DNA of 64,000 nt from a virus, in IMG/VR virus record IMGVR_UViG_3300021085_000024, positions 1 to 64,000 of that record; one strand, written 5' to 3'. Numbering within the stretch: position 1 is the first letter of the stretch; every line of letters starts with the position of its first letter. The notes beneath the pieces were generated by a model that saw only the letters and a list, made by a program, of their open reading frames with translations, was not told the DNA's origin and searched no databases. The translations under genes were made by a program, and so were the position numbers. Below are positions 699-44,598 of the stretch, in pieces.

Positions 699-727
699 TA
701 TACGGAAAGAGGGCTTAGAAGCGATCC
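699..727 (-). promoter_or_regulatory. Phage-type promoter, GGATCG-N17-CGTATA
   Basis: On the minus strand GGATCG (722-727) is followed after exactly 17 bases by CGTATA (699-704), within TTTCCGTATAAG. It drives the gene ending at 197. It is one of twelve sites in the window with the same spacing. The upstream box lies inside the loop of an inverted repeat (709-742). Confidence 0.72.
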
Positions 728-742
728 TACTCCCAAGCCCTC
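709..742. repeat. Inverted repeat around a promoter
   Basis: GAGGGCTT (709-716) and AAGCCCTC (735-742) are perfect 8-bp arms with an 18-base loop. On the minus strand the second arm is followed by TTT, so it may terminate transcription from the gene at 751-936. The promoter of the next gene has its -35-like box in the loop and its -10-like box just past the arm. Terminator and promoter therefore overlap. Confidence 0.5.
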
Positions 743-750
743 TATAAAGG

Positions 751-936
751 TCAGCCCCATTTGCCCCGACAAGCACCTTTGTCTTTCTTCTTTTTCTTGT
801 CTGGGATGACGGTGTGTGTTCCTCTCCAAGAAGCCATGTCACCACCATTTTCAAAGTGGCTTCTTCGCATTTCACCACGAACTCCAGAGAGTTGCTTGAG
901 TTGTTGTTTGAGAGATTTTTTTTCTTTCCTAGTCAT
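751..936 (-). CDS. Small basic hypothetical protein, 61 aa
   Basis: A very basic 61-residue protein beginning MTRKEKKSLK, with a lysine run (DKKKKKDK) near the C-terminus. No family is recognised; the composition suggests nucleic-acid binding. AGGAGG lies 6 bases before the ATG, and a phage-type promoter (970-998) precedes it. Transcription diverges from the + strand gene at 1049. Confidence 0.7.
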   Translation of the reverse strand: MTRKEKKSLKQQLKQLSGVRGEMRRSHFENGGDMASWRGTHTVIPDKKKKKDKGACRGKWG

Positions 937-969
937 AACGACCTCCTATCTTTTGATTGCTTCCTCATA

Positions 970-998
970 TATACGGAAAACTTAAAAAGATGCAACCG
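970..998 (-). promoter_or_regulatory. Phage-type promoter, CGGTTG-N17-CGTATA
   Basis: On the minus strand CGGTTG (993-998) is followed after 17 bases by CGTATA (970-975), within TTTTCCGTATATA. It is placed to transcribe the 61-residue gene at 751-936. Confidence 0.65.
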
Positions 999-1048
999 CA
1001 CGATTCTATCAATAATCGAGTTAGGGTAAAGCATAGGGAGGCAAGCCA

Positions 1049-1519
1049 ATGATTTTAGAACCAGATGATTATTTATATCTTCAAGATGGAACATACTTAC
1101 ACACAAAGGAAAGAAGTTCTTCGGCTTGGCTTTCTGTTTACAATGAATTGCAGAAGGCACTCAAAGCAAGAATCTTCGACAAAGTCGTTCTCGTTACGGG
1201 ATTACCAGCATCGGGCAAAACGACATGGGTCAAGATGCACAACAAAGAGTGGGTCATTTACATTGTGGATGCTGACCTTGTTGGGAAGGAATTGCGAAAA
1301 GAAGTTATCCACCAAATCCGAGAACACGACAGTAACATCCCTATTGGGATTGTCTTCTTGGATACAAATAGAGATGTGTGTCTGGAAAGAAATGCTAAAA
1401 GATCGGCTGACAGACTTATCCCTTTGTCGGCTTACGCTGACATGACATCTGTGTTTTGCTACCCCTCGACACTTGAAGGTTTTGACCACATACATTTTAA
1501 GTGGAACTTTTCTGTATAA
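1049..1519 (+). CDS. P-loop ATP-binding protein, kinase-like
   Basis: This 156-residue protein has a clear Walker A motif, GLPASGKTT, at about residues 50-58. A strand ending in VDAD follows, then VFLDTNRDVCLERNAKR, which resembles the second aspartate and arginine-rich lid of small P-loop kinases (polynucleotide kinase or zeta-toxin type). It probably transfers phosphate from ATP to a nucleic acid end, nucleotide or other small substrate; the substrate cannot be told. The N-terminal 40 residues match nothing I know. GGGAGG lies 7 bases before the ATG. No phosphatase domain is present, unlike T4 PseT. Confidence 0.75.
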   Translation: MILEPDDYLYLQDGTYLHTKERSSSAWLSVYNELQKALKARIFDKVVLVTGLPASGKTTWVKMHNKEWVIYIVDADLVGKELRKEVIHQIREHDSNIPIGIVFLDTNRDVCLERNAKRSADRLIPLSAYADMTSVFCYPSTLEGFDHIHFKWNFSV

Positions 1520-1560
1520 TTTTTCTATTCTCTCTCCCTATATTAGAAAGAGGGGGAATC

Positions 1561-1710: not shown

Positions 1711-1711
1711 A

Positions 1712-2686
1712 ATGTATAATCCTTTAGGAAATCTCAGAAGAAGGATCTCGGAAAGTGGTGGGTTCTTCAATGCTCACGCACACCTAGATAGAGCCTTCAC
1801 GGTGACTGAGATGGATATGATTCTCACCAAGCAACCCCTCATGAAAAAATGGGAACTGGTTGATGAGGTGAAGAAGAACAGCAGTGAAGAAGATTACTAT
1901 CAAAGGATTTGCTACGCCCTCCGAACACAACAAGAAAAAGGGGTTAGTTCGGTGACGACCTTTGTGGATATCGACCCCATCGTGGAGTTGCGAGCCATCC
2001 GAGGAGCAGTCCGAGCAAAGAAGTTCGCAAAAGAAATCGGAGTGGAACTCTCTATCGCTTCCCAAACATTGAAAGGGATTGTCCCAAACTACCCTAGAAG
2101 ATTATTGGAAAAATGCCTCACAGAAGGTTGGTTGGATGTCATTGGGTCACTCCCAAAAGCAGATAAAGATACAGATAGACACCTTGACACCGTCTGTTCA
2201 ATGGCTCGTGCCGCTCATTTACCTCTCCATGTTCATGTCGACCAAAACAATAGTCCGACCGAAAAGGAAACCGAGCAGTTGGCTCGGAAGACAATCCAGT
2301 TCGGTATGGAAGGTTGGGTCACGGCTGTCCACTGTATTTCCCTCGCAACACACCCAAAAGCATACCGACAAAGGGTTTATAACCTAGCGAAGGATTCGGG
2401 CTTGATGTTCGTGGCTTGTCCTACGGCTTGGCTTGATCACCCTCGCAATGAAACCCTAATGCCGTTCCATAATGCTCTCACCCCAGTCGATGAACTCATT
2501 GCCAATGGTTTGGTGGTAGGGATAGGTTCAGATAACATACACGACATCTACAAGCCTTTCTGTGATGGGGATATGCTCACAGAGTTGAGGGTGTTGTTGG
2601 AGGGTTGTAAAATCTATGATTCAGAGGAGTTGTTTTATATCGCCACTGTGAATGGTAGGAAAACCATAAAAAAAGCCCTTCGGTAA
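1712..2686 (+). CDS. Cytosine-deaminase-like amidohydrolase
   Basis: This 324-residue protein belongs to the amidohydrolase superfamily and looks closest to cytosine deaminase (CodA). Metal-binding motifs are in order: HAHLD (H22, H24), HVHVD (H175), AVHCIS (H207) and GSDN (D274), followed by a CodA-like DIYKPFCDGDML. In E. coli CodA the third motif is HCDE, and its glutamate (E217) is the catalytic proton shuttle. Here the equivalent residue is Gln178 (HVDQ), so activity may be altered or the substrate may be another cyclic amide or amine. GGAG precedes the ATG. Such enzymes are rare in phages. A link to pyrimidine supply or to the three cytosine methyltransferases here is inference. Confidence 0.78.
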   Translation: MYNPLGNLRRRISESGGFFNAHAHLDRAFTVTEMDMILTKQPLMKKWELVDEVKKNSSEEDYYQRICYALRTQQEKGVSSVTTFVDIDPIVELRAIRGAVRAKKFAKEIGVELSIASQTLKGIVPNYPRRLLEKCLTEGWLDVIGSLPKADKDTDRHLDTVCSMARAAHLPLHVHVDQNNSPTEKETEQLARKTIQFGMEGWVTAVHCISLATHPKAYRQRVYNLAKDSGLMFVACPTAWLDHPRNETLMPFHNALTPVDELIANGLVVGIGSDNIHDIYKPFCDGDMLTELRVLLEGCKIYDSEELFYIATVNGRKTIKKALR

Positions 2687-2697: not shown

Positions 2698-2717
2698 CGC
2701 TGTGTGAAAGTTACAGA

Positions 2718-5416: not shown

Positions 5417-5418
5417 AA

Positions 5419-7254: not shown

Positions 7255-8031
7255 ATATACTCCTATTCTCACAAGAGTCATCTCATTGAAAGATTAACGA
7301 ACCTTTCAGATATAATCTTTGATTTTAGGTAATAGAATCCCCATACCCATTTAAGGGTTGGTGTTATTTTCGGTTATTCCTTCCCAAAGGAATTGAGTCA
7401 TGGGCAAGTAGTTTTTTATTTCCGTAGAAGTCTTTGTGTTTGTCTATGTAGAACTTGTATTCTTATTCGTATTCTCATTGTTATTTGGTTTCTTATTTTT
7501 CTTGGGTTTCTTGGGCTTGGTTGTAATTTGATACAAACCAATTCTATATACTAATTCTAATTCTAATTACTATATACAATTAAGAACTTATAGAAGATCC
7601 CTCTATTATCTTCTTTCCGTTCTCTTTCTGACTGGTGAGGCTTCTATTCTTTCTTTTCATCTCTCAAAGAAATAGAACTCGGATTTCTTGGTCATCAGAA
7701 AGGTCACTCTTGAGATTGGGACGGATTTGTTTTCCATACCGAACCCTTATCAAGAAGTGGCTTCCCTTTCGGGAAGGTATCGTGGTTATTTTTAATGTTG
7801 GAAAAGAACATATCTAAATCGGGTGGAACTTTTAACCACCTCACCCTATTAAGGGATTATAGTTCTATCAGAAACAAAAGAGACACCATAGAGATATGGG
7901 ATCAATCAATCTATCTGGGAAGAAACTATCAGAAGACTCAGACGGTTTTGAGAATACTCTATTTTGTTAGGGATTGCAAAACTTTTCTATCTCGGTATCT
8001 TTGATAGGAAGAAAAACAACGGAGGAAAGGG
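7255..8031. other. Long noncoding region, origin candidate
   Basis: About 780 bases between divergent transcription blocks contain no frame with a ribosome-binding site. The top strand has long pyrimidine-rich tracts (about 7420-7500 and 7600-7680), a triple CTAATT direct repeat near 7548-7566, and a tight hairpin CTTCCC-TTTC-GGGAAG at 7761-7776. Strand asymmetry, a flanking HU gene and AT-rich sequence fit a replication origin. A divergent promoter region or an untranslated RNA is equally possible. Confidence 0.4.
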
Positions 8032-8352
8032 ATGCAGAACCAATTATTTTTTTCAAGAGAGAACGCACATCTGTTAGCAGAAGAAGTCTTTAAGATTATA
8101 TCTGGGAAATCGAACCCAGTGTTCCCTCATTCATCGAAGGGGATGCCCTCCCTTTATGTTTTGATGGGAAATACCAAAATAGACACCGATCAATATCATC
8201 GGTGTGTCCTACCCGTAATAGAGAAGGAGGATTTGCAAATCCTCCGAACCCCTAGATCAAGGGAGTTCCTAAAGGATCGAACACGAACTCAGATATTCAT
8301 TGATCGGATAGGAGGCTATCTGACAGATTCTTTTATTGCAGAAGGCTTCTAG
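8032..8352 (+). CDS. Hypothetical protein, 106 aa
   Basis: Starts MQNQLFFSRENAHLLAEEV with GGAGGAAAGGG before the ATG. The sequence has a helical start, then a beta-rich centre (SLYVLMGNTKIDTDQYH) and a helical end. No family is recognised. It is the first + strand gene after the noncoding region and precedes the clamp-loader genes. Confidence 0.66.
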   Translation: MQNQLFFSRENAHLLAEEVFKIISGKSNPVFPHSSKGMPSLYVLMGNTKIDTDQYHRCVLPVIEKEDLQILRTPRSREFLKDRTRTQIFIDRIGGYLTDSFIAEGF

Positions 8353-8380
8353 GGTTGATTGGGCTGTGGGTTTCCGTATA
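8352..8380 (+). promoter_or_regulatory. Phage-type promoter, GGGTTG-N17-CGTATA
   Basis: GGGTTG (8352-8357) is followed after 17 bases by CGTATA (8375-8380) within TTTCCGTATATG. It is placed to drive the zinc-ribbon protein and the delta'/delta clamp-loader genes. Confidence 0.68.
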
Positions 8381-8410: not shown

Positions 8411-8572
8411 ATGAGTAAGAAAGGCGATACGGCTTGGGTCTCATGTCGGGCAAGAGAAAAATGTGAGGGTAATCAATCAGTAATTGTTTCTCACAAGAAA
8501 CGAGAAGGTGGTGGGCATAAGACCGTTTATCGTTGTAAATCATGCAATCATCTTTTTGTTTTGTGGGTGTGA
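8411..8572 (+). CDS. Small zinc-ribbon-like protein, 53 aa
   Basis: Starts MSKKGDTAWVSC with AAGGAG 6 bases upstream. Four cysteines (Cys12, Cys18, then CKSC near residues 42-45) and nearby histidines suggest a zinc ribbon, a fold often used for nucleic-acid or protein contacts. It ends one base before the clamp-loader delta' start and shares the promoter at 8352-8380. It may be an accessory to the replisome, but this is inference. Confidence 0.68.
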   Translation: MSKKGDTAWVSCRAREKCEGNQSVIVSHKKREGGGHKTVYRCKSCNHLFVLWV

Positions 8573-8573
8573 T

Positions 8574-9161
8574 ATGACAGCGATGTTGGTACATGGGGAA
8601 GGGGCATTGGAATATGCCCTTAAAGAAGCCCTCAAGTTTTCCACCCATTACGAGTTTGGTGGTGATGCCCTCACAACAGAGGAAGCCAAGAGTGCCATAG
8701 AGAAGATGTCTTTCCCTTTGGTGGGAGTGGATTCCTTTGCTGTGGTTGTTGGTGCAGTGGATAGTGCTAGGGGTCGAGCCACAGATGCTCTCTTGAAAGG
8801 TATTGAGGAGCATGAACCCTTTGTGACTCCCATCCTTTGGGCGACCTCTCTGAATGAAGTACCGAAAACCATTCGTTCCCGTTGTAGGGTTGTTTGGTCG
8901 TATGCTTCCTCACCAGAACCCAAAGAGGAGTATCTACGCCTTGCTAGAAATTGTGTGGGGGGTAATCACGCCAATGTAATTATTCAACTTAACGAACTGA
9001 AAGCAAAGCCCCTTGAGGTTTTATTTGAACTGGGGAATGCCTTGTCCCAGTTGGACTTCACGAAAGAGAGGGTGGTCACCCTTTGGGTCGAAATCCGTTT
9101 GGCTCTCCGACAAGTCCACCCAATATCCAAGAATGAACTGTTGGGGGTGCTATGCTTCTAG
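8574..9161 (+). CDS. Clamp loader delta' subunit-like protein
   Basis: This 195-residue protein resembles HolB (delta') or a shortened AAA+ clamp-loader subunit. It has no Walker A, as expected for delta', but contains the sensor/SRC region: RGRATDALLKGIEEHEP, then TPILWATSLNEVPKTIRSRC at about residues 83-107. The C-terminal collar is short. The start at 8574 follows the previous stop by one base; the site is weak, so translation is probably coupled. It overlaps the delta gene by 10 bases. With delta and gamma/tau encoded here, the phage can load its own clamp. Confidence 0.8.
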   Translation: MTAMLVHGEGALEYALKEALKFSTHYEFGGDALTTEEAKSAIEKMSFPLVGVDSFAVVVGAVDSARGRATDALLKGIEEHEPFVTPILWATSLNEVPKTIRSRCRVVWSYASSPEPKEEYLRLARNCVGGNHANVIIQLNELKAKPLEVLFELGNALSQLDFTKERVVTLWVEIRLALRQVHPISKNELLGVLCF

Positions 9162-10075
9162 TTCATGGCTCAGACGATTTCCTATGTCGTAAACAAATTA
9201 AGACCGTTATTTCAAAATGGTTGTCCGAGGAATACAGTGTTTATACCGTAGTGGGAACACCCGAAAGCATAGAACCCCATATATCACCTCTGTTGGGTTT
9301 CTTTGGTGGGAGTGGTGGTAAGCCAGCCTTTTACATTGAGGATGCCTTGTCGTGCGATATCGCTTATCTCAGTGACCTTCCTTACCCCATTCTGTTGTAC
9401 ATTGATGGGTCACTCCCCCGAAGCAAGAAACACCCCATCCACAAGATAGCCAAGAGGAACATTAAAAAGTTCAATAAGGTTTCGGTTTTTCAAGCAGAGG
9501 AGAAAGCGATAGAGTTTGCCATCTCTTCGTGTGACGAGTTGGGTTTACATCTCAGTGTTGGTTTGGCGAAGAACTTCGTTAAGATTGTCGGTGTAGATTA
9601 TGGTGTCATCACCCACGAGTTGTTTAAGGTTCAGATGTTGCTTGGGTCTGAGAAGGAAATCAAACCCACCCACTTCCGTGCCATTGCTCAAGTGACCGAA
9701 ATGTCTGCACAAGATATCATCACTTCTGTTCAAGATAGAAACATCAGAGGTCTTTTGAAATCTTTAGTGACGGTCAAATCCACACACAACAACGATCCGA
9801 CTCTTATGGTTTGTGGTTGGCTCGGATCAGAGGCGAGAAAATGGTTATTGTGTTCGTCTCTGTCGAAACAAGGTCGCCCAATAGATCAAAAGACAACGGG
9901 CATCCATCCGTATGTTCTGAAAAAAAAGTTGATCCCAAATATAAAAAAATGGGATGTTTCACGATGTTTGAGATTGGTACATTTGATCTCACAAACTGAA
10001 CGGTATGTTAAGACTGGTGGGAAGAACGCTTGGACAAGATTTGAGAGTGACCTTGTGATCTTGATTCAAATGTGA
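9152..10075 (+). CDS. Clamp loader delta subunit-like protein
   Basis: At 307 residues this fits HolA (delta), the subunit that opens the beta ring. It starts MLLVHGSDDFLCRKQIKTVI, which matches the family's N-terminal pattern (a strand, then G-D-D/E-x-F). The HolA middle (DISSV-like AQDIITSVQDRNIRGLLKSL) and helical collar domain (WLGSEARKWLL) follow. The gene overlaps delta' by 10 bases. It probably works in a phage clamp-loader complex with the products of 8574 and 29823 on the clamp at 25363. Confidence 0.82.
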   Translation: MLLVHGSDDFLCRKQIKTVISKWLSEEYSVYTVVGTPESIEPHISPLLGFFGGSGGKPAFYIEDALSCDIAYLSDLPYPILLYIDGSLPRSKKHPIHKIAKRNIKKFNKVSVFQAEEKAIEFAISSCDELGLHLSVGLAKNFVKIVGVDYGVITHELFKVQMLLGSEKEIKPTHFRAIAQVTEMSAQDIITSVQDRNIRGLLKSLVTVKSTHNNDPTLMVCGWLGSEARKWLLCSSLSKQGRPIDQKTTGIHPYVLKKKLIPNIKKWDVSRCLRLVHLISQTERYVKTGGKNAWTRFESDLVILIQM

Positions 10076-12499: not shown

Positions 12500-12528
12500 G
12501 GATCGGTTCAGACCTCTTATTTCGTATA
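12500..12528 (+). promoter_or_regulatory. Phage-type promoter, GGATCG-N17-CGTATA
   Basis: GGATCG (12500-12505), 17 bases, then CGTATA (12523-12528) within ATTTCGTATAGA. It drives the RecD2-like helicase gene 20 bases downstream. Confidence 0.75.
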
Positions 12529-14909: not shown

Positions 14910-14925
14910 ACTCCAACTCCGTATA
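14897..14925 (+). promoter_or_regulatory. Phage-type promoter, GGATCG-N17-CGTATA
   Basis: GGATCG (14897-14902) lies in the last codons of the helicase gene. After 17 bases comes CGTATA (14920-14925) within ACTCCGTATAAA. It serves the genes at 14943 and 15280. Confidence 0.73.
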
Positions 14926-29805: not shown

Positions 29806-29822
29806 AGGGTTAGGAGGATATT

Positions 29823-31629: not shown

Positions 31630-31631
31630 AT

Positions 31632-32234: not shown

Positions 32235-32271
32235 TCCGTTTATAGACGGACACATTTATTGAGGGACACAA

Positions 32272-33014: not shown

Positions 33015-33023
33015 GGAGTTGAT

Positions 33024-34220: not shown

Positions 34221-34267
34221 TCGTGGTAATATGCCTATATTTTCAACAAAGATAATAGAGGTGTCTT

Positions 34268-34852
34268 ATGAGTACGGATAAATATGACTTTTGGAACGGC
34301 TTGATGTCGGGTGCATACATGAATGTGAAAGGTGCATCTGACGGGGTCGATATGTTTTTAGAGGAAAGCCTTGATAAAGAAGCAACCGATAGAACCTTAT
34401 CAGATTTGACTGATAAAGGTAGAGCCAACAATGCTTTGAGTTTGCCCGTTTCCGATGGAACACGGGTGGCTTTCGTAGCGAACTTGGGTTCGATTCTGTC
34501 TTTAGATGACGCTCCCGAAAACAATGCCAAAGGGACAGTTGTTACTGTTAAGTCTGCTGGAGGGGCTATCACTTCCCACGATGGTCGTGTTTTTGTGAAA
34601 TGGGATGATGGTCAGTTTCGTGCAGTCCACCAAAATCATCTTCGTTTGGCGAGTGGACACTCCAAGACACAAAAAGCCGCTGGTAACACAATGCGAGTTG
34701 CTTCTCTTGGTGACTTGACAGACTTCTTGAGAATTAGTTCGGATACTCTTATCCATAAAGCCACAGAAGATATCTGGTCATTCAAAAAAGATGCTGACGG
34801 TTTCGTCATAGAGCGTTTGCTCGGTGAAGACGGTAAGCCTTTGAAATTATAG
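34268..34852 (+). CDS. Probable virion protein with SH3-like domain
   Basis: A 194-residue protein. The middle (GTVVTVKSAGGAITSHDG then VFVKWDDGQFRAVHQNHLRL, about 95-135) reads as a KOW/SH3-like barrel. The last part is GDLTDFLRISSDTLIHKATE then WSFKKDADGFVIERLLGEDG, a conserved-looking block also typical of phage structural proteins. GAGGTG precedes the ATG. Function unknown; virion assignment comes from position. Confidence 0.6.
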   Translation: MSTDKYDFWNGLMSGAYMNVKGASDGVDMFLEESLDKEATDRTLSDLTDKGRANNALSLPVSDGTRVAFVANLGSILSLDDAPENNAKGTVVTVKSAGGAITSHDGRVFVKWDDGQFRAVHQNHLRLASGHSKTQKAAGNTMRVASLGDLTDFLRISSDTLIHKATEDIWSFKKDADGFVIERLLGEDGKPLKL

Positions 34853-34861
34853 GATTGTATA

Positions 34862-35500
34862 ATGAAGAAAATATCATTTAAGAAGAAGCAACGGTCTTTT
34901 CTGGAAGAAAAGTGGGGGGCATCCTTAGAACCGAAAAGTCAAATGACTAGAACGGCTGGTGAAGTTCGTTTCGTTAAGGATAACTCGAATGATGCTAGTT
35001 CGTGGGCTTGGAAACAAGGCCCCTCCGAACGCTCAATGCAACCCGATTACAACTTTAAGCCAAAGCGAAAGAAAGCATTAGCCAAAGTTCTCAGAAGCAC
35101 AACTGCTTCTATGGGACACGCTATGAGTGCCTACAACTCTTTCACGAAAATCAAGAGTGCTGATGTATCCCCCGATGGGGCATTGGGTGGGAAAGGGTAC
35201 ATACAAAAGATTATGGATATGCGAAAGCAGTACATGAATGTCGTTGAGGCGTTATCTGCTTTGAGTGACACCATTTATGACGAGATTCAAGCCCCACATT
35301 GGGCTGCGATTTCCCGTCAAGAAACGCCCGAAGACAAAGCAGAGGTCACCCAAATCATACAAGATGCCGAGAGCATTAAAGAAGACCCAGAGAGTTGGGC
35401 AGAAGAACAAGAGGAAACAATGGATGAAGATCACACCCCAATGGGCAAGACTGCTTCTTCAAAATCTATTCCTAAAAAGTATTTAAGAGGTGACAAATGA
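34862..35500 (+). CDS. Probable virion protein, 212 aa
   Basis: A basic N-terminus (MKKISFKKKQRSFLEEKWGA) is followed by a helical centre (about 85-140) and a long acidic stretch (ESWAEEQEETMDEDHT), ending KKYLRGDK. No family is recognised. Its stop overlaps the next start by ATGA, so it is probably made with the 690-residue protein at 35497. Confidence 0.62.
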   Translation: MKKISFKKKQRSFLEEKWGASLEPKSQMTRTAGEVRFVKDNSNDASSWAWKQGPSERSMQPDYNFKPKRKKALAKVLRSTTASMGHAMSAYNSFTKIKSADVSPDGALGGKGYIQKIMDMRKQYMNVVEALSALSDTIYDEIQAPHWAAISRQETPEDKAEVTQIIQDAESIKEDPESWAEEQEETMDEDHTPMGKTASSKSIPKKYLRGDK

Positions 35501-37569
35501 GTTCAAAAATACCATCAGACCATCTAGTTCCTAGAGGTCTAAACGGCTTGATCGATACCTACCCCGATATGAACTACGGCTTGGGGACATTGGAGAAGAC
35601 TTTCATGACAGATGGCACAGCCGACTTCACTTCGGGACTCCCCGATGGGATAGTTCGTGGTGAGGATGAAGGTCTTGGTGATCTTGGTGATTTTATGAAA
35701 GAAGGGAACATTGCTGATATGTCTTTCATTGATATTGAAGGCGATGCTCACATCCAAAGTCTGCCCGAATATGGTGAAGCAGACAGTTCGCTCGAATCTG
35801 CTTGGGGAGAACTACAAACTCCAGCCATATATGCTGAACACCAAAAAGATTTGACAGCCATTCCCCGTGCCATAACTCAGACTGAAGTAGAAGAAGATGT
35901 CCTAGAAGAAGTCGCCATGAAATGTGCGAGGTTGTTGCATAATGGTGCGAGCATGAAGAATCTCCAGCGAATCGCTTTCGACCGATTGGGTTCTGATGTT
36001 ACGGAACTTCGTGAGGATTTTGAATACCTCACGGAAGAAAGAGGCTTGATGGGAAATGTTTATGTCCTTGCGAGTGCTTACCCACAAATCGAAACGGGGC
36101 ATTGGAATAAAGCCATTAAGAAGGCTTCCCCACACGCTCAGTACTTGTTGATTGATGACGGTCACGCTCTATCAAGCCAAGAGACATTCAATGGAATGAA
36201 AGTGGTTTTGGATGTTCCTTACAAGCAAGCCTTTGAGGTCTATAAGCCTTTACTTGAAGCCTCTGGTCGTAAACTAGCCTCTGGTGATTCAAGGGCTGTC
36301 CTCAAACAAGCCTTCCTAACTACGCCTCAGAAGAAAATCCAAGAGGTATTCCATGAGAAGGCATACAGAGTCGTTGACACTGTTTCCATGAAGGAAGCCC
36401 AACAACAGTTCGGGGAATACACCCCAGAAGAACAAAGAGTTTATCAAGATAGTGAACGCCAAGATAGAATCGCACTCAAAAAAGCCCACAAGAAACTAGC
36501 CAGTGCTTACCGTGCTGGGATGATGAGCCGAGATGAATTGAAGAAATTGGCGGGTCTGCGTAGTCACACTCAAATCGAACTAGAACTACATAGGCTGAAA
36601 CTCAAGAGTCACGCTGCCTCTGAATCTTATTCTGGTGCAAAAAACTCTATCGCCAATCAAGAATCTTTGAAGCATGAACAAGGAGATATCACTGGGCGAG
36701 TTAAGAAAGCGAAAGAAGAAAAACGAGTTGCTTCCGTGAGGGCAAAAGTTGCTGTTATTAAACAAGCAATCGACAGAGGTGTTCGTGGGAATGAACTAGC
36801 CCGTATCATTAAGCAGAAACTCAACAAAGCAGACCTCCGTATTGCTTCTCCGATATTAAATCCCATCTTGAAAGAAACCAATGCACTCGCTCTCCCTTCT
36901 GCTCAGACGGAAGAATATAGTGGTGCTTCTTTCACAGCCCACCAAGAACATCGAAGAACCGCCCATGTCGAGAAGTTATCTCAAACTGAGATAGCCATCG
37001 GTAAAATGGCTCGTTGGACTAGACAACAGATGACAGAAGGGACAATCGGAAAAACTCTCACGGCTATGCTAAAGACCAAGTTCGCTTCCCCCTTCTTGAA
37101 GAAAGCCTCAACCACAATCCAAGAAATCCGAACATCCCATGAAGGCTTGTCTGGGCATCTTTATGTGGATGCTGAGGCGTATGCCTCTCCCGTTGGGACA
37201 AAAGGTTGTGATGAAGGTGGCTTGAAGCACCGAGCCAATCAGTTGCCTTTCGTTATGGGGATGGACAGATGTGGTTCTTGTTCTTTTGCCAGTCGTAAAG
37301 CCGATGGTACTTCTGTTTGTCAGAAATACAACAAGCCGATTATCACCGAACTCCCTTCTGAGTCTAAAGACTACCAAGCAGAGAATATCCGAATGGCAGA
37401 TGCCAGTGATGCTGAAATAACGGCTTCTATTTTTGCTTCTCGATACGAACCCTCAGAGTTCAATCTAGCGAACTCCGAACTAGATAACTTTTCCTTTGAA
37501 GAAATGGCGACAGCAGAAACTCTCTCAAATGTCTTTTTCGGTGGGATGGAGATACACGATGACGAATAA
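35497..37569 (+). CDS. Large virion protein, 690 aa
   Basis: The N-terminal 130 residues are Gly/Asp-rich; 140-260 are globular with an alpha-beta look (LMGNVYVLASAYPQIETGHW). Residues 280-560 are basic and helical with recurring 'KLAS' and 'RVAS' steps, and 575-640 hold a cysteine group (GTKGCDEGG, DRCGSCSFA, SVCQKY) likely to bind zinc. No enzyme is recognised. A structural or injected protein is likely because it lies between virion genes and the terminase. Confidence 0.62.
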   Translation: MSSKIPSDHLVPRGLNGLIDTYPDMNYGLGTLEKTFMTDGTADFTSGLPDGIVRGEDEGLGDLGDFMKEGNIADMSFIDIEGDAHIQSLPEYGEADSSLESAWGELQTPAIYAEHQKDLTAIPRAITQTEVEEDVLEEVAMKCARLLHNGASMKNLQRIAFDRLGSDVTELREDFEYLTEERGLMGNVYVLASAYPQIETGHWNKAIKKASPHAQYLLIDDGHALSSQETFNGMKVVLDVPYKQAFEVYKPLLEASGRKLASGDSRAVLKQAFLTTPQKKIQEVFHEKAYRVVDTVSMKEAQQQFGEYTPEEQRVYQDSERQDRIALKKAHKKLASAYRAGMMSRDELKKLAGLRSHTQIELELHRLKLKSHAASESYSGAKNSIANQESLKHEQGDITGRVKKAKEEKRVASVRAKVAVIKQAIDRGVRGNELARIIKQKLNKADLRIASPILNPILKETNALALPSAQTEEYSGASFTAHQEHRRTAHVEKLSQTEIAIGKMARWTRQQMTEGTIGKTLTAMLKTKFASPFLKKASTTIQEIRTSHEGLSGHLYVDAEAYASPVGTKGCDEGGLKHRANQLPFVMGMDRCGSCSFASRKADGTSVCQKYNKPIITELPSESKDYQAENIRMADASDAEITASIFASRYEPSEFNLANSELDNFSFEEMATAETLSNVFFGGMEIHDDE

Positions 37570-38335
37570 AGAAGCGGGTATGCCTCAGAACCCAGAAATA
37601 CTAGGTCAAGTTTTGCATGATGTCCTTTGTACTTTGCGAACTATGTATGTTCATTATCAGAACTTACATTGGGAGAGTAAAGGCGATTCCTTTTACAGCG
37701 ACCATCTTTTGTTCCAACGCTTGTATGAAGGCGTGGCAGAAGAAACAGATGCACTCGCTGAGAAGATTCTTGGCTTGACGGGACAGACCAAATGGGTTTC
37801 TGACCTCCATACTTTCCAACACGGTCATGATACTTTACAGATATGGTACGAGTTCACTAAAGGTGACGATTCAACTAGCCGTGCTTTCTTCTCTGAGATG
37901 TACTTCCAAGAACAACTCGATTATGCTCGTGCTGTCCTAGAAGAAAGCAACAATATGACTTACGGTTTGGATGACTTTCTAGGAGGTCTGGCTTCAAAAC
38001 ACGAGGAACATGTTTATCTTCTCCGTCAAAGATGGGGCAAAGTAGAACATGAATCACGAGTGGCAAGTGGTGCTGGACATCATTTCCATGACAACCCCGA
38101 AAAGAGAGAGGTTCGTCAACTTCAGCAGAGCAAAGCGAAAGGCAATGCCATCACAGACAAACCCTCCGATGCACCACCGACTCCCTCTGATATCTTGGAA
38201 GATAAGGGTAAAGAGTTCTCTACTCTATCTCGTTATGTTATTAACACGGCTCAACCGACCAAGAAGCCGATGCCCTCATCTCGTGCCGAACTCCCAAAAC
38301 AAGCCAAGCGAGTTCGCCTAACAAGGAGTAAGTAA
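37559..38335 (+). CDS. Dps-like ferritin with C-terminal extension
   Basis: Residues 10-165 are a Dps-type four-helix ferritin. LHW (His37), SDHLL (His49) and TDALAEKI (Asp64, Glu68) match the inter-subunit ferroxidase site of Dps. Dps dodecamers bind DNA and oxidise iron, protecting DNA from peroxide. Residues 170-258 form a charged, proline-containing extension absent from Dps. ATG at 37559 has GGAG 7 bases upstream and overlaps the preceding gene by 11 bases. Its location among virion genes suggests it may be packaged or associated with the head. Confidence 0.83.
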   Translation: MTNKEAGMPQNPEILGQVLHDVLCTLRTMYVHYQNLHWESKGDSFYSDHLLFQRLYEGVAEETDALAEKILGLTGQTKWVSDLHTFQHGHDTLQIWYEFTKGDDSTSRAFFSEMYFQEQLDYARAVLEESNNMTYGLDDFLGGLASKHEEHVYLLRQRWGKVEHESRVASGAGHHFHDNPEKREVRQLQQSKAKGNAITDKPSDAPPTPSDILEDKGKEFSTLSRYVINTAQPTKKPMPSSRAELPKQAKRVRLTRSK

Positions 38336-38937
38336 TGAAAATCATTAAACCACCCTTCACACAAGTAGTTGCTGGTGTTGTTAAATCGGGTGACCCTTCT
38401 GTTGGTGTGAATCCAACTGTTCAAGGTCAACTGCGAACTACCCAATGGATTATGGATGGGGCGAATAAGAACCCTAAGTCTTTCCCTCCAAATGCCAGTC
38501 ATTTTACGGGTTTCAATACCAATGGGCATGTCGTAGGAGGATTCAATCCTTCTGTTGCTACATTGACATTTGACCTTGTGACTTACAATAAACTGTTTGA
38601 ACTACACATCGGAAGTCATGTTTTGAAAGCGGGCAACTCCCTCACTTACACATCTTCTGCTGTCATCGTGGGTGACTTCTTGAACAATGTGGGGATACTC
38701 ATAGCAGATATGTTAGATAATCTTGTGGATGCCATCAATCGTATCCCAGAGTTCTCAGCCACCAATGACGGTGCTGCTATCATCACTATTGAACATAAAG
38801 CCCAAGTGGGAATCAATTCAGATTCTCTTGCCATCTCGTATCGAAATATCGACCCGACTGTCACAACCTCACCTTTCGTAGAAATAATAGGGTTTGATGG
38901 TGGCTCTCCTACTGTTGGTTCGGTACTAATTAACTAG
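38335..38937 (+). CDS. Probable virion protein, 200 aa
   Basis: A beta-rich protein starting MKIIKPPFTQVVAGVVKSG, with repeated strand patterns around 70-180 and no enzymatic motif. AAGGAG precedes the ATG, which overlaps the Dps-like stop. It may be a decoration, neck or fibre protein; only the context supports this. Confidence 0.58.
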   Translation: MKIIKPPFTQVVAGVVKSGDPSVGVNPTVQGQLRTTQWIMDGANKNPKSFPPNASHFTGFNTNGHVVGGFNPSVATLTFDLVTYNKLFELHIGSHVLKAGNSLTYTSSAVIVGDFLNNVGILIADMLDNLVDAINRIPEFSATNDGAAIITIEHKAQVGINSDSLAISYRNIDPTVTTSPFVEIIGFDGGSPTVGSVLIN

Positions 38938-38947
38938 GGGGTGATAA

Positions 38948-39688
38948 ATGAGTTCTGGAATACCTAAACCAAATGTCAACAAACAAGAGATTCTTGAAGC
39001 CTTACCTTTGGAGATCAGCCGAATTGCGGTGACGACCAAAGAAGGGGAAGTCAAGTATCGGAAAGTCGAAGAAGTCGAACTAGAAGACATCTTGATGTTC
39101 AACAAGAGCAATCAACCCGTTGTGATGAGAGGCAAGGCTGGGAGACCCTCCGATCTCCCCACATTGGATTTGCCCTCTCTCCAAGACACAAGCAACTTTG
39201 TCCCTCTGCCAAATCGTCTGCAAAAACGAAAAGACTTGGCTGTTGCACAAACACCTCAGCCAACGGCTCTGAACTATCAAAATGATAGGGTTCTCGCACA
39301 AGTGAGTCAAGACCCCGAATCCTTAGATGTCCTCCATTCCGTGATGATGGGCTTGGCAGAAGAAGCAGCCGCTATGGCTCAAGCGAGAGTTTCACTTGAA
39401 GCACAAGGGAAGAACACCTCCAATGTGTCATCAAAGCGTGTATCGGCATTGCGAGCCATTGGTGATACATGGATGAAGCGAAAGGAACAGTTGGGGGGTA
39501 AGGGAATCGACTTGGAGGGTTTGGCTTTCAAGAGAGTTTTCGGATTCACAATGGAAACTTTTCGTAAAGCACTCACTCAATCCAACATTCGTCCAGAACA
39601 GATTGAGGTTATCTTCGCAAAACTAGCGAACTTGATGGGTGATGATTGGGTAACTGAAGCGAAGAAAAGAGCAGATGGGGATGACTAA
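38948..39688 (+). CDS. Possible small terminase subunit, 246 aa
   Basis: A helical protein directly before the large terminase, overlapping it by one base (TAATG). The N-terminal half includes VTTKEGEVKYRKVEEVE and a proline-rich segment; the C-terminal half has helical runs (LAEEAAAMAQARVSLEAQ, then KRVSALRAIGDTWMKRK). Small terminases recognise packaging sites and feed DNA to the motor. The position and size fit, but no helix-turn-helix is certain. Confidence 0.52.
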   Translation: MSSGIPKPNVNKQEILEALPLEISRIAVTTKEGEVKYRKVEEVELEDILMFNKSNQPVVMRGKAGRPSDLPTLDLPSLQDTSNFVPLPNRLQKRKDLAVAQTPQPTALNYQNDRVLAQVSQDPESLDVLHSVMMGLAEEAAAMAQARVSLEAQGKNTSNVSSKRVSALRAIGDTWMKRKEQLGGKGIDLEGLAFKRVFGFTMETFRKALTQSNIRPEQIEVIFAKLANLMGDDWVTEAKKRADGDD

Positions 39689-41526
39689 TGTCTGGATTTC
39701 TTTCCGACATCGTGATGGGTGCTGGTCGTGTAAAAGGGACTGAAAGTCGCTCCGTTGTTGACATCATCACTTTCATCGAAAGTGCATGGGGTTTGCAAAT
39801 GCGATTATTCCCCGTTCAGAAAATCATACTGAAAGCACATTACGGTATCCCCCTAGATGACACAGAAAAGACAGTCCCTTATTCCGATTGGAGAAGGGAG
39901 AATGTCCAGATGCTGACAGAAGCCGAATACCTCCGATTATTGCATAAAGAGGGTCGGTGTAATATCTCTGAGGTGACGGAAGGACACGAAAGACGAGAGA
40001 TGATTTTATCTGTGGGGAGACGGAGTGGGAAGACAACAATATCTGCTTGTATCGCTGCCTATGAAACATACAAGTTGATTTCCAAAGGTGACCCACAAGG
40101 GTTCTATGGTTTGCCTAGTTCCAACGTTATTCAGTTAATAAGTGTTGCGACAGACAAAGACCAAGCGGGATTACTCTACAACGAGGTGAGTGGTCACTTT
40201 CGCAATTGCTCTTTCTTCACTCCCTACTCTGCTAACAACACCATGTCCTATGCGAGATTTCAAACCCCTATGGACATTGAAAGATATGGCTCTTATTCAG
40301 AGGACAACAGTGCCAACGCCAATATCAAAGTGACCTTCCGTTCTTGTGTTGCGAAGGGGCTTCGTGGGGCTGGTAATATCTGTGTTATCCTTGATGAGGT
40401 CGCTCACTTTACAGACAAGGGACAAAGTGGTGCAGAAGCCGTATATAACGCTGTGACACCTTCTACCTCAGCCTATTCACAGAAAGACCCCAACAATAAA
40501 TCAAAGCCCATAGGTGAGGTTGAGGGGCGTATTATATCCATCTCCTCTCCATTGGGGAAACAAGGGTTGTTCTACAAATTGTTTAATACAGCATTTCGTG
40601 GTGGAGCAGCCAGTGCTAATATGTTGGCTGTTCAAGCACCCACTTGGGAAGTGAATCCCACTGTTCCAGCCACCGAGTTCGCTAAACATTATGTTAAAGA
40701 CCCTCGTGTGTTTTTCACGGAATATGGGGCTGTGTTCTCTGACCGAACAAGAGGTTGGATAGAGGATTCCAAAGACCTCTTGGCGTGCGTGGATGACTCC
40801 CGAAAAGAAGTTAAAAAAGGCAAAACACGAGTTCCCTATTTCATGGGAATCGACTTGGCTCTTGTTGGTGATGGCACGGCTGTGGCTATTGGGCATCTCG
40901 AAGAGATTGATGGGGAGAATAAGATAATCCTCGATCTCATAGCCCATATTAAGGCTGGAGAAGGAGATTATGCTGATAGGGAACGCTTGGAGTTCGATGA
41001 TGTGGCTGATTGGATACTCGGTTGGACAAAGAAGTTCTATGTGAAAGAAGGTATCTTCGATCAATGGGCTGGGATTCCTTTTGAGCAAGCCCTCGCCAAA
41101 AGAGGTTTGAAGAATATCAAGTCTACACACTTCACCAAGAATCTCACATCACAGATATTTCAGAACTTCAAAGATTTGATGTTCGACAAGAAAATGGTTC
41201 TCTATAATGACCCAGTACCCAAAGACGGTGAACTGTGTCCCTACTTAGAGGAAATTATGGAACTCCAAGCCGAGATCCATAGCAAGCACATCATCACGGT
41301 GGCTGCCCCTCAAGTCGAAGGAAAGCATGACGATATGTCGGATGCTTTAGTTCGGATGGTTTGGTCGGCTTCCCAGAATATCACAAAGCAACTGCGTGTT
41401 TCTATGGCGAATGGTCGTAATGCCTTCGGTCATCAAACCACCACAAGTGACCTAGTTCGTAGGCGAACTAGAGCCTTACAAAAGGGGTCACACCCATCCC
41501 GTCAATCACGCAAATGGCGAAAATAG
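39688..41526 (+). CDS. terL: Terminase large subunit
   Basis: A 612-residue packaging motor. Walker A is VGRRSGKTT near 109-117, Walker B ICVILDEVAHF near 231-241, and a coupling motif ISISSPLGKQG near 285. The C-terminal RNase H-like nuclease starts YFMGIDLALVGDGTAVAIG near 388 with further acids and a final KHDDMSDALVRM near 545. It pumps DNA into the prohead with ATP and cuts concatemers. AUG overlaps the upstream stop. The basic C-terminal tail is typical. Headful versus cohesive-end packaging cannot be told here. Confidence 0.95.
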   Translation: MSGFLSDIVMGAGRVKGTESRSVVDIITFIESAWGLQMRLFPVQKIILKAHYGIPLDDTEKTVPYSDWRRENVQMLTEAEYLRLLHKEGRCNISEVTEGHERREMILSVGRRSGKTTISACIAAYETYKLISKGDPQGFYGLPSSNVIQLISVATDKDQAGLLYNEVSGHFRNCSFFTPYSANNTMSYARFQTPMDIERYGSYSEDNSANANIKVTFRSCVAKGLRGAGNICVILDEVAHFTDKGQSGAEAVYNAVTPSTSAYSQKDPNNKSKPIGEVEGRIISISSPLGKQGLFYKLFNTAFRGGAASANMLAVQAPTWEVNPTVPATEFAKHYVKDPRVFFTEYGAVFSDRTRGWIEDSKDLLACVDDSRKEVKKGKTRVPYFMGIDLALVGDGTAVAIGHLEEIDGENKIILDLIAHIKAGEGDYADRERLEFDDVADWILGWTKKFYVKEGIFDQWAGIPFEQALAKRGLKNIKSTHFTKNLTSQIFQNFKDLMFDKKMVLYNDPVPKDGELCPYLEEIMELQAEIHSKHIITVAAPQVEGKHDDMSDALVRMVWSASQNITKQLRVSMANGRNAFGHQTTTSDLVRRRTRALQKGSHPSRQSRKWRK

Positions 41527-41535
41527 GAGTTTTTT

Positions 41536-41799
41536 ATGTCATCCCCACACAGAGCAGACTATCGTTTAATTCATCGTTTTATGTTGCAATACTCAAAGAG
41601 TAAAGCCTCAAAAAATAACCTCGTGTCACCCACTGATGCTGACATTGAGAAAGTTCTCCGTGCTTTCCATCATTTTGGGGGTTCTTGGGAGAGATTGTTC
41701 AAGGGAAGCATTAAAGATATGGTTGTCTTGAAGAAGATTGTCAAAGTTGGGGTCAAAAAGAAACTCTTCAACCTTGCTCCATCTTGGGATAGGGTATAG
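41536..41799 (+). CDS. Hypothetical protein, 87 aa
   Basis: A small helical, basic protein between terminase and portal genes, starting MSSPHRADYRLIHRFMLQY. AGGAG precedes the ATG. No family is recognised. The location suggests a packaging or head-neck accessory. Confidence 0.62.
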   Translation: MSSPHRADYRLIHRFMLQYSKSKASKNNLVSPTDADIEKVLRAFHHFGGSWERLFKGSIKDMVVLKKIVKVGVKKKLFNLAPSWDRV

Positions 41800-41808
41800 T
41801 GATTCACT

Positions 41809-42108
41809 ATGGGAAGATACAGAGCAAGAAACACAGACCCCGTTGAAAGGGATGTTCATAAGAACATAGCCGAAGCCGAGCGTTATCTGAAAAGAGCGTT
41901 GTCGGTTCTTTCTTCTGTTCGTGGGAATCCCTCTATACGGAAAGCACGGTATAATCAACTAGAGCAAATGCTCCAAGAATCCGTGAAGGTTTTATCTTCT
42001 CCTCCTCGATTGACACATGCTCATGATAAAAACGACCCCGACTTGAATCCAAAGGTCGCAGAGGAACAACGGAAAAAACGAATGGAACGGAAAAGAGGTG
42101 ATAAATGA
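41809..42108 (+). CDS. Hypothetical protein, 99 aa
   Basis: A basic helical protein, MGRYRARNTDPVERDVHKN, with a final arginine-lysine run. Its stop overlaps the portal start (ATGA). There is no strong Shine-Dalgarno; a TAGGGTATAGTGA sequence (also at 5129-5141) lies just upstream. Function unknown. Confidence 0.6.
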   Translation: MGRYRARNTDPVERDVHKNIAEAERYLKRALSVLSSVRGNPSIRKARYNQLEQMLQESVKVLSSPPRLTHAHDKNDPDLNPKVAEEQRKKRMERKRGDK

Positions 42109-43787
42109 CAAAAAAATCTGGTGTGGCAGTCGGTAAAGTTCCTTCTCGTGCGAAAGTACACACGGGAAAACCTCGTAAAGTTGTGGCTAGTTCAATGAAA
42201 GTTGGTGGGTTACAGACCTATTCTGGTGGCGAAGGGTCTGGTGGGAACTTCTATTCTCCCGAACTGAGTACCGATTTCCTTGAACTCCCACAGAGTATGC
42301 ACGAGAGATGGAATTACTTCCGTTTCTTCTATCGTTCAGAACCTTTCGTGGGTCAAGCGATTGATCTTCACACCGAACTTCCCCTTTCAAAAATCCGTCT
42401 GGGTTTCCCGAACTACATCAAAGACAGAGAGATGGCGAAGGAGGCATTGGACTTCTGTCAGAAGTGGTCTAGGAAAATCGGATTACTTCACCGTTTGATT
42501 GAGATCGTCCATGAATACAATCTCATTGGTGAAGTGTTTATCTTCATGGAAGATGTGACTTCAGACCCACCCGATGATCTTAAATATGAAGTCAGACGAG
42601 AACTGCTTGATGATGGGACAGTCCAAGAGGAACTTGTAGAACGAGAGGATGCCAAAGAACTGCAAGTGAAATGGTTGAAAAAGAACTACAAGGGTTGGAC
42701 AGCCCTCCGAGTTCTCCCCCCAGAGCAAACCCATGTTCAATCGTTTCCATTCACGGATGAGAAGATTATTGAACTTATCCCCGATTCTAAAACAAAGGAC
42801 ATTATCTCACAAGCAGATAGTGGTGACCCAACAGCAAAGCGTATTGTGGACTCCATGCCTAGAGGTGTGGTGGAAGCCGTCCTTGAAGGGAAGAATATCC
42901 CCTTGAACACCGATCCAGATGCGGGTTCTTTCGTCTGCTATCTCGCTCGTAAGAAATCACAGTATGAGGACAGAGGGCATTCCATCCTTGAGAGATGTAT
43001 CCGAACTCTCGTGTTCCGAGATAAACTTCGTCAAGCCAACACTTCTATCGCTTCAAGGCACATGACCCCCATCCGTTTGGTCTATGGTGAAGATATGGAT
43101 CAAGCCGATGTGGAAGCATTGAGAGAGCAAGTGGATTTGGCTCTTGCTGATCCCGACTTCTCTATCATAGCGAACTTTGAAATCCGATGGGAGGAAATGG
43201 GTTCTGACCAACGCCTCCTTGATCTTGGTTCTGAATATGACCTCACTGATCGTCAGTTGTATGCTGGTCTTGGTGTGACAGAAGGCTTACTCTCTGGTGA
43301 GAGTTCTTATAGTGGTGACCGTATCAACTTGGAAGTCATCAACACGAGGTACATGCTTCTCCGAGAAATCCTACAAGACTTGGTTGAGGAGAAAATGCTC
43401 AAACCAATGTGTGCTAGGATGGGTTTCATTGAGGAAGATGAATACGGAAATGAACATGTGGTTTATCCCACACTTTCTTTCACAAGACTTGCACTCAGAG
43501 ATAACAATGACACTTTCGATGCCTTGTTCAATCTCTATCAGAAGGGTTCATTGGATGTGGATATCATCTTGGAACTCTTGAACATTGACCCAGTAGCAAC
43601 CAAAGAGAAACTAGAACGAGATATGTTCACACTCAACGATAGTCAGTTCAATGAGGTTCTACGAGGTATCTATGGTGAGGCTGGTCGTGCATTAGCCGAG
43701 AACTCAGATGCCCTTGAAAAGATAGCCGAGAATCTAGGTCTGACCTACGAGAAGCCCGAAGAAGAAGGTGGCGGTGGTAGATTCTGA
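42105..43787 (+). CDS. Portal protein
   Basis: A 560-residue protein with a T4-like portal organisation. The N-terminal part has MHERWNYFRFFYRSEPFVGQ near 66 and GEVFIFMED near 143. The clip and crown regions include RGHSILERCIRTLVFRDKLR near 300, and the stem helix region is rich in acidic residues near 340-380. A glycine-rich acidic end (EEEGGGGRF) follows. Twelve copies form the channel through which DNA is packaged and ejected. It follows the terminase closely. Confidence 0.9.
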   Translation: MTKKSGVAVGKVPSRAKVHTGKPRKVVASSMKVGGLQTYSGGEGSGGNFYSPELSTDFLELPQSMHERWNYFRFFYRSEPFVGQAIDLHTELPLSKIRLGFPNYIKDREMAKEALDFCQKWSRKIGLLHRLIEIVHEYNLIGEVFIFMEDVTSDPPDDLKYEVRRELLDDGTVQEELVEREDAKELQVKWLKKNYKGWTALRVLPPEQTHVQSFPFTDEKIIELIPDSKTKDIISQADSGDPTAKRIVDSMPRGVVEAVLEGKNIPLNTDPDAGSFVCYLARKKSQYEDRGHSILERCIRTLVFRDKLRQANTSIASRHMTPIRLVYGEDMDQADVEALREQVDLALADPDFSIIANFEIRWEEMGSDQRLLDLGSEYDLTDRQLYAGLGVTEGLLSGESSYSGDRINLEVINTRYMLLREILQDLVEEKMLKPMCARMGFIEEDEYGNEHVVYPTLSFTRLALRDNNDTFDALFNLYQKGSLDVDIILELLNIDPVATKEKLERDMFTLNDSQFNEVLRGIYGEAGRALAENSDALEKIAENLGLTYEKPEEEGGGGRF

Positions 43788-43851
43788 TAATCTATCTATA
43801 TCGTCTTATAGATGAATAAGAGAGAAGTCGTCAAAAACTTCAACTAAAAAA

Positions 43852-43879
43852 GAAAGGGGAGTCCCTCAACTCCCCTTTC
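43852..43879 (-). terminator. Terminator for the minus-strand island
   Basis: GAAAGGGGAG and CTCCCCTTTC form a 10-bp perfect stem with an 8-base loop. On the minus strand it is followed by a T-rich run, so it ends transcripts from 43903-45007. On the + strand it follows the portal gene and may also act there without a clear T-tract. Confidence 0.8.
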
Positions 43880-43902
43880 AACCACAAACTTGGCTTAATG
43901 TA

Positions 43903-44157
43903 CTACTTGGGTTTCCCTCCCCGACAAGGAGTACACCAACTTTGTGGAATCGTTTTACCCTTGATAACTCGCAAACCAAAAGACTCTACAACTTTCCCTA
44001 TCTTTTTACATTTGGGGCATGCCTTGTATTCTAGTTCATATTGGTCAATGGCTTCAATGAGCGTGTTTTTCGATATTTTCCCGTTGCCAATTCGGTGATC
44101 AAGTACAAGCACCATACCATTGGGTGTGTTTATCCTTTTACATATTTCGTCAGTCAT
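43903..44157 (-). CDS. Zinc-ribbon-like protein, 84 aa
   Basis: Two cysteine pairs, ACPKCKK near 47-50 and SWCTPCRGG near 75-78, suggest a zinc ribbon. The N-terminal half (RINTPNGMVLVLDHRIGNG) is beta-rich. AGGAG lies 6 bases before the ATG. It is the last gene of a minus-strand island and may act as a small nucleic-acid-binding regulator. Confidence 0.7.
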   Translation of the reverse strand: MTDEICKRINTPNGMVLVLDHRIGNGKISKNTLIEAIDQYELEYKACPKCKKIGKVVESFGLRVIKGKTIPQSWCTPCRGGKPK

Positions 44158-44165
44158 GTCTTCTC

Positions 44166-44549
44166 CTATGCAGATTTGCGTTGTTGTGAAATGATTTGAT
44201 GAGTACCAACTAGGGAGTTGTTGAGGGCATGCTCTATGGCTCTTTGGTCTATATCAAGACGGTCATCAAGCCATCGACCTAAAGCGATGGTGTGCTTACA
44301 TAAGCGACCGAAACCACCAGCCTCACAAGTGCAACGAACACTCTTTGTTTTGAGATTCACTCTCGTGGTATAAACTTCCGAGCCAGATATGGGTGTGTGG
44401 GTCATCCCCGTAATCAATCCCGCATCGACATCGAATGACGGTGACATCACAGCCACCTTTGATGCTTTTATTCGGGTGTCCTTTGACACTTTGCTCTCAA
44501 GCCGTTGGATGGTTTCTCGTAATATCGTAGTTTGGTTCAGTATATTCAT
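44166..44549 (-). CDS. SWIM zinc-finger protein
   Basis: A 127-residue protein with RCTCEAGGFGRLCKH (Cys73, Cys75, Cys84, His86), the CxCxnCxH pattern of SWIM domains, found in transposase-like and DNA-binding proteins. AAGGAG precedes the ATG and a phage-type promoter lies upstream (44570-44598). The partner is unknown; SWIM domains bind DNA or proteins in SNF2 and MuDR families. Confidence 0.78.
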   Translation of the reverse strand: MNILNQTTILRETIQRLESKVSKDTRIKASKVAVMSPSFDVDAGLITGMTHTPISGSEVYTTRVNLKTKSVRCTCEAGGFGRLCKHTIALGRWLDDRLDIDQRAIEHALNNSLVGTHQIISQQRKSA

Positions 44550-44569
44550 AGCAATCTCCTTGTGCTTTA

Positions 44570-44598
44570 TATACGGAGAAACCTTTTCGATGCGATCC
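44570..44598 (-). promoter_or_regulatory. Phage-type promoter, GGATCG-N17-CGTATA
   Basis: On the minus strand GGATCG (44593-44598), 17 bases, then CGTATA (44570-44575) within TTTCTCCGTATATA. It drives the SWIM and zinc-ribbon genes from within the structural region, showing that the island is regulated like early genes. Confidence 0.76.

Follow-up and report, generated by a model that had tools for sequence, protein, structure and literature searches.

Bipartite promoter-like elements with a fixed 17-base gap and two versions of the -35 box in a jumbo phage genome

The window analysed here is a stretch of 64,000 nucleotides (nt; positions 1–64,000 of IMG/VR record IMGVR_UViG_3300021085_000024, a virus contig of 67,795 nt), in which a bipartite promoter-like element, SRRTYG-N17-SGTATA, recurs ahead of genes on both strands. 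This strict pattern has 12 matches in the window and also 12 in the whole parent record. A search for relatives with a window protein led to IMGVR_UViG_3300046167_000825 (289,014 nt; hereafter G001), which matches about 96% of the window in two segments of 99.8% and 99.2% identity. G001 and a further record, G003, are the same phage as the window, which represents part of a jumbo phage genome. The sole long stretch that has diverged from G001 is the 2.6 kilobases (kb) between the two segments (window positions about 55527–58158), which falls within an open reading frame (ORF) of 932 amino acids (aa; 55323–58121). Most gene names used here were read from translations.

On the minus strand, a site of the GGATCG class (699–727, predicted RNA start 692) precedes a 161-aa ORF starting at 682, a CGGTTG-class site (970–998) precedes a 61-aa ORF starting at 936, and a second GGATCG-class site (44570–44598) precedes a SWIM-like ORF (44166–44549; just under the Pfam cut-off). 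On the plus strand, the GGATCG class is found before a RecD-like helicase gene (site 12500–12528, gene 12549–14909), before the ORFs at 14943 (14897–14925), 16104 (16009–16037) and 25109 (25063–25091) and, with GGTATA as second box, before an SbcC-like ORF at 18825 (18779–18807). GGGTTG-class sites are located at 8352–8380 (predicted RNA start 8387; the next start, of a 53-aa ORF, is at 8411) and at 23062–23090, before an SbcD-like ORF at 23107. The CGGTTG class is present at 28961–28989, before a 63-aa ORF at 29023, and a CAGTTG variant (29777–29805) stands before a DnaX-like ORF at 29823. A possible extra weak member, GGATTG-N17-GGTATC (7971–7999, plus strand, before an ORF at 8032), scores 14.8 bits with the weight matrix described below.

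A sequence-only reading of the window had listed the 12 sites, and all are exact in position and strand, with GGATCG (7), GGGTTG (2), CGGTTG (2) or CAGTTG (1) as the first box and CGTATA (11) or GGTATA (1) as the second. Dinucleotide shuffles, other gaps and the reversed pattern served as controls. The gap is fixed, as that reading had claimed: gaps of 8 to 27 other than 17 give 0 or 1 match each in the window, and 200 dinucleotide shuffles of it give a mean of 0.06 matches and a maximum of 1, compared with the 12 found. The figure of 17 stands for the bases between the boxes as drawn; it does not hold for the classical TYGNNN-to-TATANN spacer, which is 16 if TATA is placed at -12 to -9. Both values are inside 16–18, so the proposed likeness to sigma70 spacing is kept in either register. 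No strict site occurs in the interval 29805–44570 or beyond 44598, in agreement with the reported absence from the head and late region.

Across G001 the strict pattern has 50 matches, the reversed control has 0, and gaps of 10 to 24 other than 17 have 0–3 each. T, G and GTATA are invariant among the 50 because the pattern itself fixes them. A weight matrix trained on these sites, which tolerates changes and had been suggested as a check, finds 60 sites above 15 bits, compared with 0.4 in eight shuffles. Its independent gain is 10 sites, since the other 50 are the training sites; among these 10, at least the sites at 85631 and 182229 show no obvious gene start over the 45 nt inspected. A de novo motif search of 156 G001 upstream regions also recovered the motif unaided (weight 0.28). 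Concerning the positions next to the boxes, the -35 box is preceded by T in 37 and then G in 42 of the 50 sites, and GTATA by T (43), C (40) and C (49). The base matching the last T of TATAAT, two after TATA, shows no preference (T in 9 of 50). A full TTGACA is found in none of the 50 sites, in line with the earlier statement that the -35 box is not TTGACA.

A pyrimidine–purine step lies 7 nt past CGTATA in 39 of the 50 sites, the next best offset having 20. By class, the step is present in 19 of 20 CGGTTG and 13 of 20 GGATCG sites; in the window it is missing from the sites at 970–998, 12500–12528 and 25063–25091. The likely RNA start is predicted at this position, within the 6–8 nt anticipated by the sequence-only reading. 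A start with a Shine–Dalgarno sequence is found within 70 nt downstream of 49 of the 50 sites, compared with 37% of 4000 random positions, although five of the 49 starts, at 0–1 nt, are probably false. Based on a rough gene caller, 41 sites are 17–45 nt ahead of the next same-strand gene; the other nine are farther from a called start, and three of the nine and one of the 41 were flagged as inside called genes. Fixed spacing, orientation, distance to gene starts and the predicted RNA start 7 nt downstream all agree with the earlier promoter reading, and the sites are almost certainly promoters, as judged from these features of the DNA.

The -35 box is dimorphic, with coupled bases, and is combined with one common -10 box, CGTATA; this is new here. 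The boxes in G001 are GGATCG (20), CGGTTG (20), GGGTTG (6), CAGTTG (2), GGGTCG (1) and CAATTG (1). The third and fifth bases vary together, A with C and G with T (counts 20, 1, 1 and 28; p=9e-12). GATC, which lies within the GGATCG box, is itself below expectation in G001 (661 vs 1530); Dam methylation, considered as a possible reason for the box, is neither favoured nor disfavoured. The CGGTTG sites have conserved spacers and leaders: the information at positions 6–22 is 16.5 bits in this class and 8.5 bits in the GGATCG class, and AATCAA occurs within 46 nt downstream of 13 of 20 CGGTTG sites vs 1 of 20 GGATCG sites. The classes also differ in location, with 11 of 20 CGGTTG and 3 of 20 GGATCG sites at 140–166 kb of G001 (p=0.019). 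The genes behind GGATCG sites include a helicase, a polymerase and an SbcC-like gene (names read from sequence), and many CGGTTG sites are ahead of small unknown proteins and an ATPase/VWA cluster. From its neighbourhood the CGGTTG class looks early and the GGATCG class middle.

The strict pattern is present only in G001 (50) and G003 (2) among nine IMG/VR records scanned; the seven others (G002 and G004–G009) have none, and G007 has one match in the reversed control. Within these nine records the family therefore looks phage-specific, as had been proposed. A single strict match, unlike the family, occurs in each of three large phages of the 'phages' collection: LR745208.1 (485 kb), Tunturi_5 (309 kb) and MaAM05 (274 kb). 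In a scan of viral_contigs, from which records very near the window may be excluded, the strict CGGTTG form had no match and the strict GGATCG form had six isolated ones. A DNA polymerase search for sister phages returned the phage itself only. An amidohydrolase gene (window 1712–2686), used for a clue to the host, had a single hit, 44% identical, in a Levyibacteriota metagenome-assembled genome, which is uninformative. A search of the open-licence literature, in which the motif letters were not used as a query, gave no title on this phage or promoter family.

G005 (316 kb) has matches for 87 of 310 G001 proteins, with a median identity of 36%. It carries a promoter-like family of its own, GTTGCAAAGRTnGC...AAGTGTTATA (48 sites, about 45 bits, conserved leader), also written as GTTGCAAAGRTnGC..a.CgaCAAGTGTTATA. 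At E-values up to 0.01, 15 of 50 promoter-proximal G001 proteins have G005 hits. The G005 family is upstream of the homologues of three of four CGGTTG-class proteins and of none of 11 proteins of other classes (Fisher p=0.009); one of the three is a weak homologue (E=0.0011, a short zinc-finger protein), and the fourth protein, without the family upstream, matches a giant G005 protein at E=0.006. If only hits at E<1e-3 are counted, the figures are two of two and none of 11. Like the G001 family, that of G005 is large, phage-specific and placed ahead of CGGTTG-class homologues, with a similar leader (TGTCAAT); it differs in its boxes and spacing and in having no detectable sigma of the type described below. 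This comparison and the gene content agree with the early/middle placement suggested from the window. A de novo search for a second motif in G005 returned mainly the reversed Shine–Dalgarno sequence, and the same kind of search in G007 (230 kb) returned no strong motif.

In G001, the upstream regions without the CGTATA family contain a second motif, tcAaTAatC..tCkATA (weight 0.52 of 108 regions). Its score is 188, vs 68 after shuffling of a set of 117 regions that differs slightly from the first. Of its 129 matches above 9 bits in the genome, 70 are no more than 100 nt from a start on the same strand. At the same threshold, it is found in 27.6% of 156 upstream regions of 90 nt in G001 (shuffled 0.8%), in 14.1% of 205 in G005 (shuffled 2.0%) and in 0.7% of 145 in G007 (shuffled 0.1%). 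We call it late because many structural-looking genes follow its sites, as judged without a count, and we infer that it serves other genes, among them late ones. Pairs of TTGACA and TATAAT show no overall excess in G001 (31 vs 52–89 in five mononucleotide shuffles). A AGATTCTTGAA-like element was also considered and dropped, with 14 intergenic and 47 genic matches.

Concerning possible readers, two G001 proteins contain sigma70 region 2 above the Pfam cut-off, one of 250 aa (191237–191989) and one of 207 aa (155283–155906); both genes are outside the window. The 250-aa protein is a sigma with regions 2, 3 and 4 (Pfam E=7e-17 for region 2 and 8e-7 for region 4), and its residues 6–248 align with SigA and RpoS (best E 4.5e-28). 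Its -35-reading helix is SRPQVYQ, compared with TRERIRQ/TRERVRQ in SigA/RpoS, and the segment past region 2.4 is PSYR, compared with PVHM in SigA; in sigma70 of E. coli, these positions contact the -35 DNA and the extended -10 DNA. A distant relative of this protein is present in 308 records of the 'phages' collection, the best listed being 36.8% identical. A structure model of it was poor (mean predicted local distance difference test, pLDDT, of 58.5) and was set aside. For the 207-aa protein, alignment with known sigmas extends no further than about residue 78–85 of its region 2, where it differs from the 250-aa protein.

Neither protein has a match at E<=0.001 in G002, G004, G005, G006, G007 or G009; distant relatives are present in G010 and G011. 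G005 and G007, which have no match to either sigma, also lack the CGTATA motif. No region-2 hit was obtained in LR745208.1, whose single motif match resembles chance; Tunturi_5 has one region-2 protein and MaAM05 has three. A third region-2-like protein of G001 (262 aa, 187864–188652), a possible further sigma, has no Pfam hit and matches G005 and G007, and weakly G004.

The window itself encodes, on the plus strand, a 202-aa protein (31626–32234) with a sigma70 region-4 domain (Pfam E=5e-8) and a second helical domain but without region 2. It is conserved in relatives that lack the CGTATA family (37–56% identity in the three aligned), and for this reason a late role is favoured. AlphaFold places helices at residues 37–101 and 107–163, with a block-mean pLDDT of about 79–94. 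Foldseek gives no hit below E=0.001 for it (best E 0.061, an RNA-guided transcription complex); several of its hits with a probability of 1.00 are sigma region-4 domains (e.g. 3hug, 8jzt). Directly ahead of this gene is a candidate transcription factor, a NusG-like protein (31096–31629, plus strand; Pfam NusG E=0.033, below the cut-off), and by eye the same arrangement is seen in L003 and L005 (31096–32234 in the window). With regard to a multisubunit RNA polymerase of the phiKZ/AR9 type, a search for the DxDGD motif alone in 304 called ORFs had two hits, the RecD-like helicase and a 189-aa protein, neither of which is an RNA polymerase large subunit.

Based on these data, the CGTATA promoters are probably read by a phage sigma of the sigma70 family working on the host core RNA polymerase, the 250-aa one being favoured. 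As in phage-sigma regulons of the phiEco32, 7-11 and SPO1 type, the genome contains both a gene for a sigma having regions 2 and 4 and a set of non-canonical promoters ahead of phage genes. The choice of the 250-aa protein over the other candidates is tentative, the 207-aa protein being the alternative. The element, (TG)-SRRTYG-N17-YCGTATA, with about 60 copies in 289 kb, would then provide the early and middle promoters of the phage: recognition of the shared CGTATA would fall to region 2, and that of the -35 box to region 4 or to a partner protein. The CGGTTG class would fire first, the GGATCG class would drive replication genes later, and tcAaTAatC..tCkATA would drive other genes, among them late ones. 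A more specific version is a two-colour code, in which there is one -10 reader, the classes differ mainly by the coupled -35 bases (GATC vs GGTT), and early or middle timing is set by switching the -35 reader; we regard this as a speculative and rather improbable extension.

Several points weigh against a phage sigma as the reader. The proposed assignment rests on co-occurrence and on changed recognition residues, and the co-occurrence on three large records, two of which may be incomplete, the other relatives being shorter. Tunturi_5 and MaAM05 have region-2 proteins without the motif, so the presence of a sigma does not imply the family; a large family, in turn, does not require such a sigma, as G005 has 48 sites with none detectable. 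Two coupled -35 versions are not easily accounted for by a single sigma, and GGATCG sites have the weaker +7 step. The promoter-like motif closest to the 250-aa operon on its upstream side is of the late type (189989, 11.3 bits), an awkward finding if the factor is needed early. Also, 8 of the 31 host-type matches fall in the 9.5% of the genome that is intergenic, so a number of them may be genuine promoters of the host type. A speculative extension of the two-colour code, prompted by the fact that these matches show no overall excess, is that the 250-aa sigma is produced late from a late-type promoter, enters the virion and is delivered into the cell at the onset of the next infection.

The first alternative, which is unlikely but has the most to be said for it, is that a host sigma, primary or alternative, reads the promoters and the phage sigmas serve other promoters. 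Early promoters must act before phage proteins exist; the CGGTTG sites have TTG and TATA at a sigma70-like distance; and the GTTG-N17-CGTATA layout is reminiscent of SigB/SigF-type promoters. The 48-site family of G005, with a good extended -10 (TGTTATA), also manages without a detectable sigma of this type. However, the CG ahead of TATA is nearly invariant, the last T of TATAAT is not preferred, TCG replaces TTG in 21 of 50 sites, and the motif is absent from the relatives checked, though those may have other hosts.

An arrangement like the sigma appropriation of T4 partly overlaps with the preferred phage-sigma reading. One sigma would read the -10 box, and a phage DNA-binding protein would replace the -35 contact at GGATCG sites only. 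This suits two coupled -35 versions at equal spacing from one -10, and the window does encode a region-4 protein with a second helical domain and without region 2. For T4, PMC2988021 describes MotA/AsiA appropriation, nearly 60 middle promoters, and early and middle promoters that share their -10 and differ upstream. The two classes in G001 are alike in this respect, with their putative timing; the T4 -10 is that of host sigma70, whereas CGTATA is not the host TATAAT, and both upstream boxes here are at an equal distance. The region-4 protein is also conserved in relatives without the GGATCG box; overall, we consider this arrangement distinctly unlikely.

Two phage sigmas, one for each -35 class, would match the two region-2 sigmas and two -35 classes of G001, again in partial overlap with the preferred reading; the 207-aa and 250-aa proteins differ in region 2, yet both classes share CGTATA, and we find this improbable. 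It is scarcely credible that we are dealing with a dispersed repeat or some other element in place of promoters (e.g. an operator or an RNA leader): conservation in the CGGTTG class extends to spacer and leader, but the distant flanks are unlike (mean pairwise identity 0.25–0.26 in both classes) and the fixed spacing, orientation and start-site step suit promoters. Chance or repeat origin was rejected by the shuffles, other spacings, reversed pattern and flank identity.

A phage sigma reading such sites would have precedents. The middle promoters of SPO1, read by gp28, join a phage-encoded sigma to a non-canonical bipartite promoter, with other boxes and in another phage. In phage 7-11 (PMC8948821), the sigma gp47 serves late promoters of the form GTAAtg-(16)-aCTA. 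The likeness lies in a phage sigma with a region-4-like C-terminal part, the host core, and bipartite non-TTGACA promoters of fixed spacing, the reader in our case being putative. Phage 7-11 has eight late promoters of one class, compared with about 60 early/middle-looking ones in two -35 versions here, and the sequences are unrelated. The phiEco32 sigma gp36 uses single-element promoters, tAATGTAtA (PMC8948821 and PMC4331800). These share with our family a phage sigma, a phage-specific element and an RNA start 6–8 nt downstream, which is predicted in our case; they differ in lacking a -35 element and in serving middle and late genes.

The sites amount to a testable promoter map of about 60 positions in a jumbo phage of which only the sequence is known, with candidate readers named and early, middle and late classes proposed from the same letters. 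Two coupled -35 classes that share one -10 also make a small natural model for studying how a sigma, or a sigma and a partner, discriminates between boxes. Should the phage sigma be confirmed, it could be combined with these promoters as an orthogonal expression pair.

Other features were also seen. G001 shows extreme avoidance of several palindromes of 4 base pairs: CCGG occurs 0 times (501 expected), AGCT once (931), GCGC 0 times (166), GGCC 43 times (622), ACGT 57 times (726) and CGCG 10 times (173), which suggests a host with many restriction systems. From their translations, three genes of the window are C5-cytosine methyltransferase-like: two close together (20146–21063 and 22111–23073) and one at 61955–63172. 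A single tRNA gene was detected in the window, a tRNA-Ala (TGC) at 63825–63899. Translations also indicate apparent clamp-loader subunits and a sliding-clamp-like protein (8484–10075, 25363–26508 and 29823–31106).

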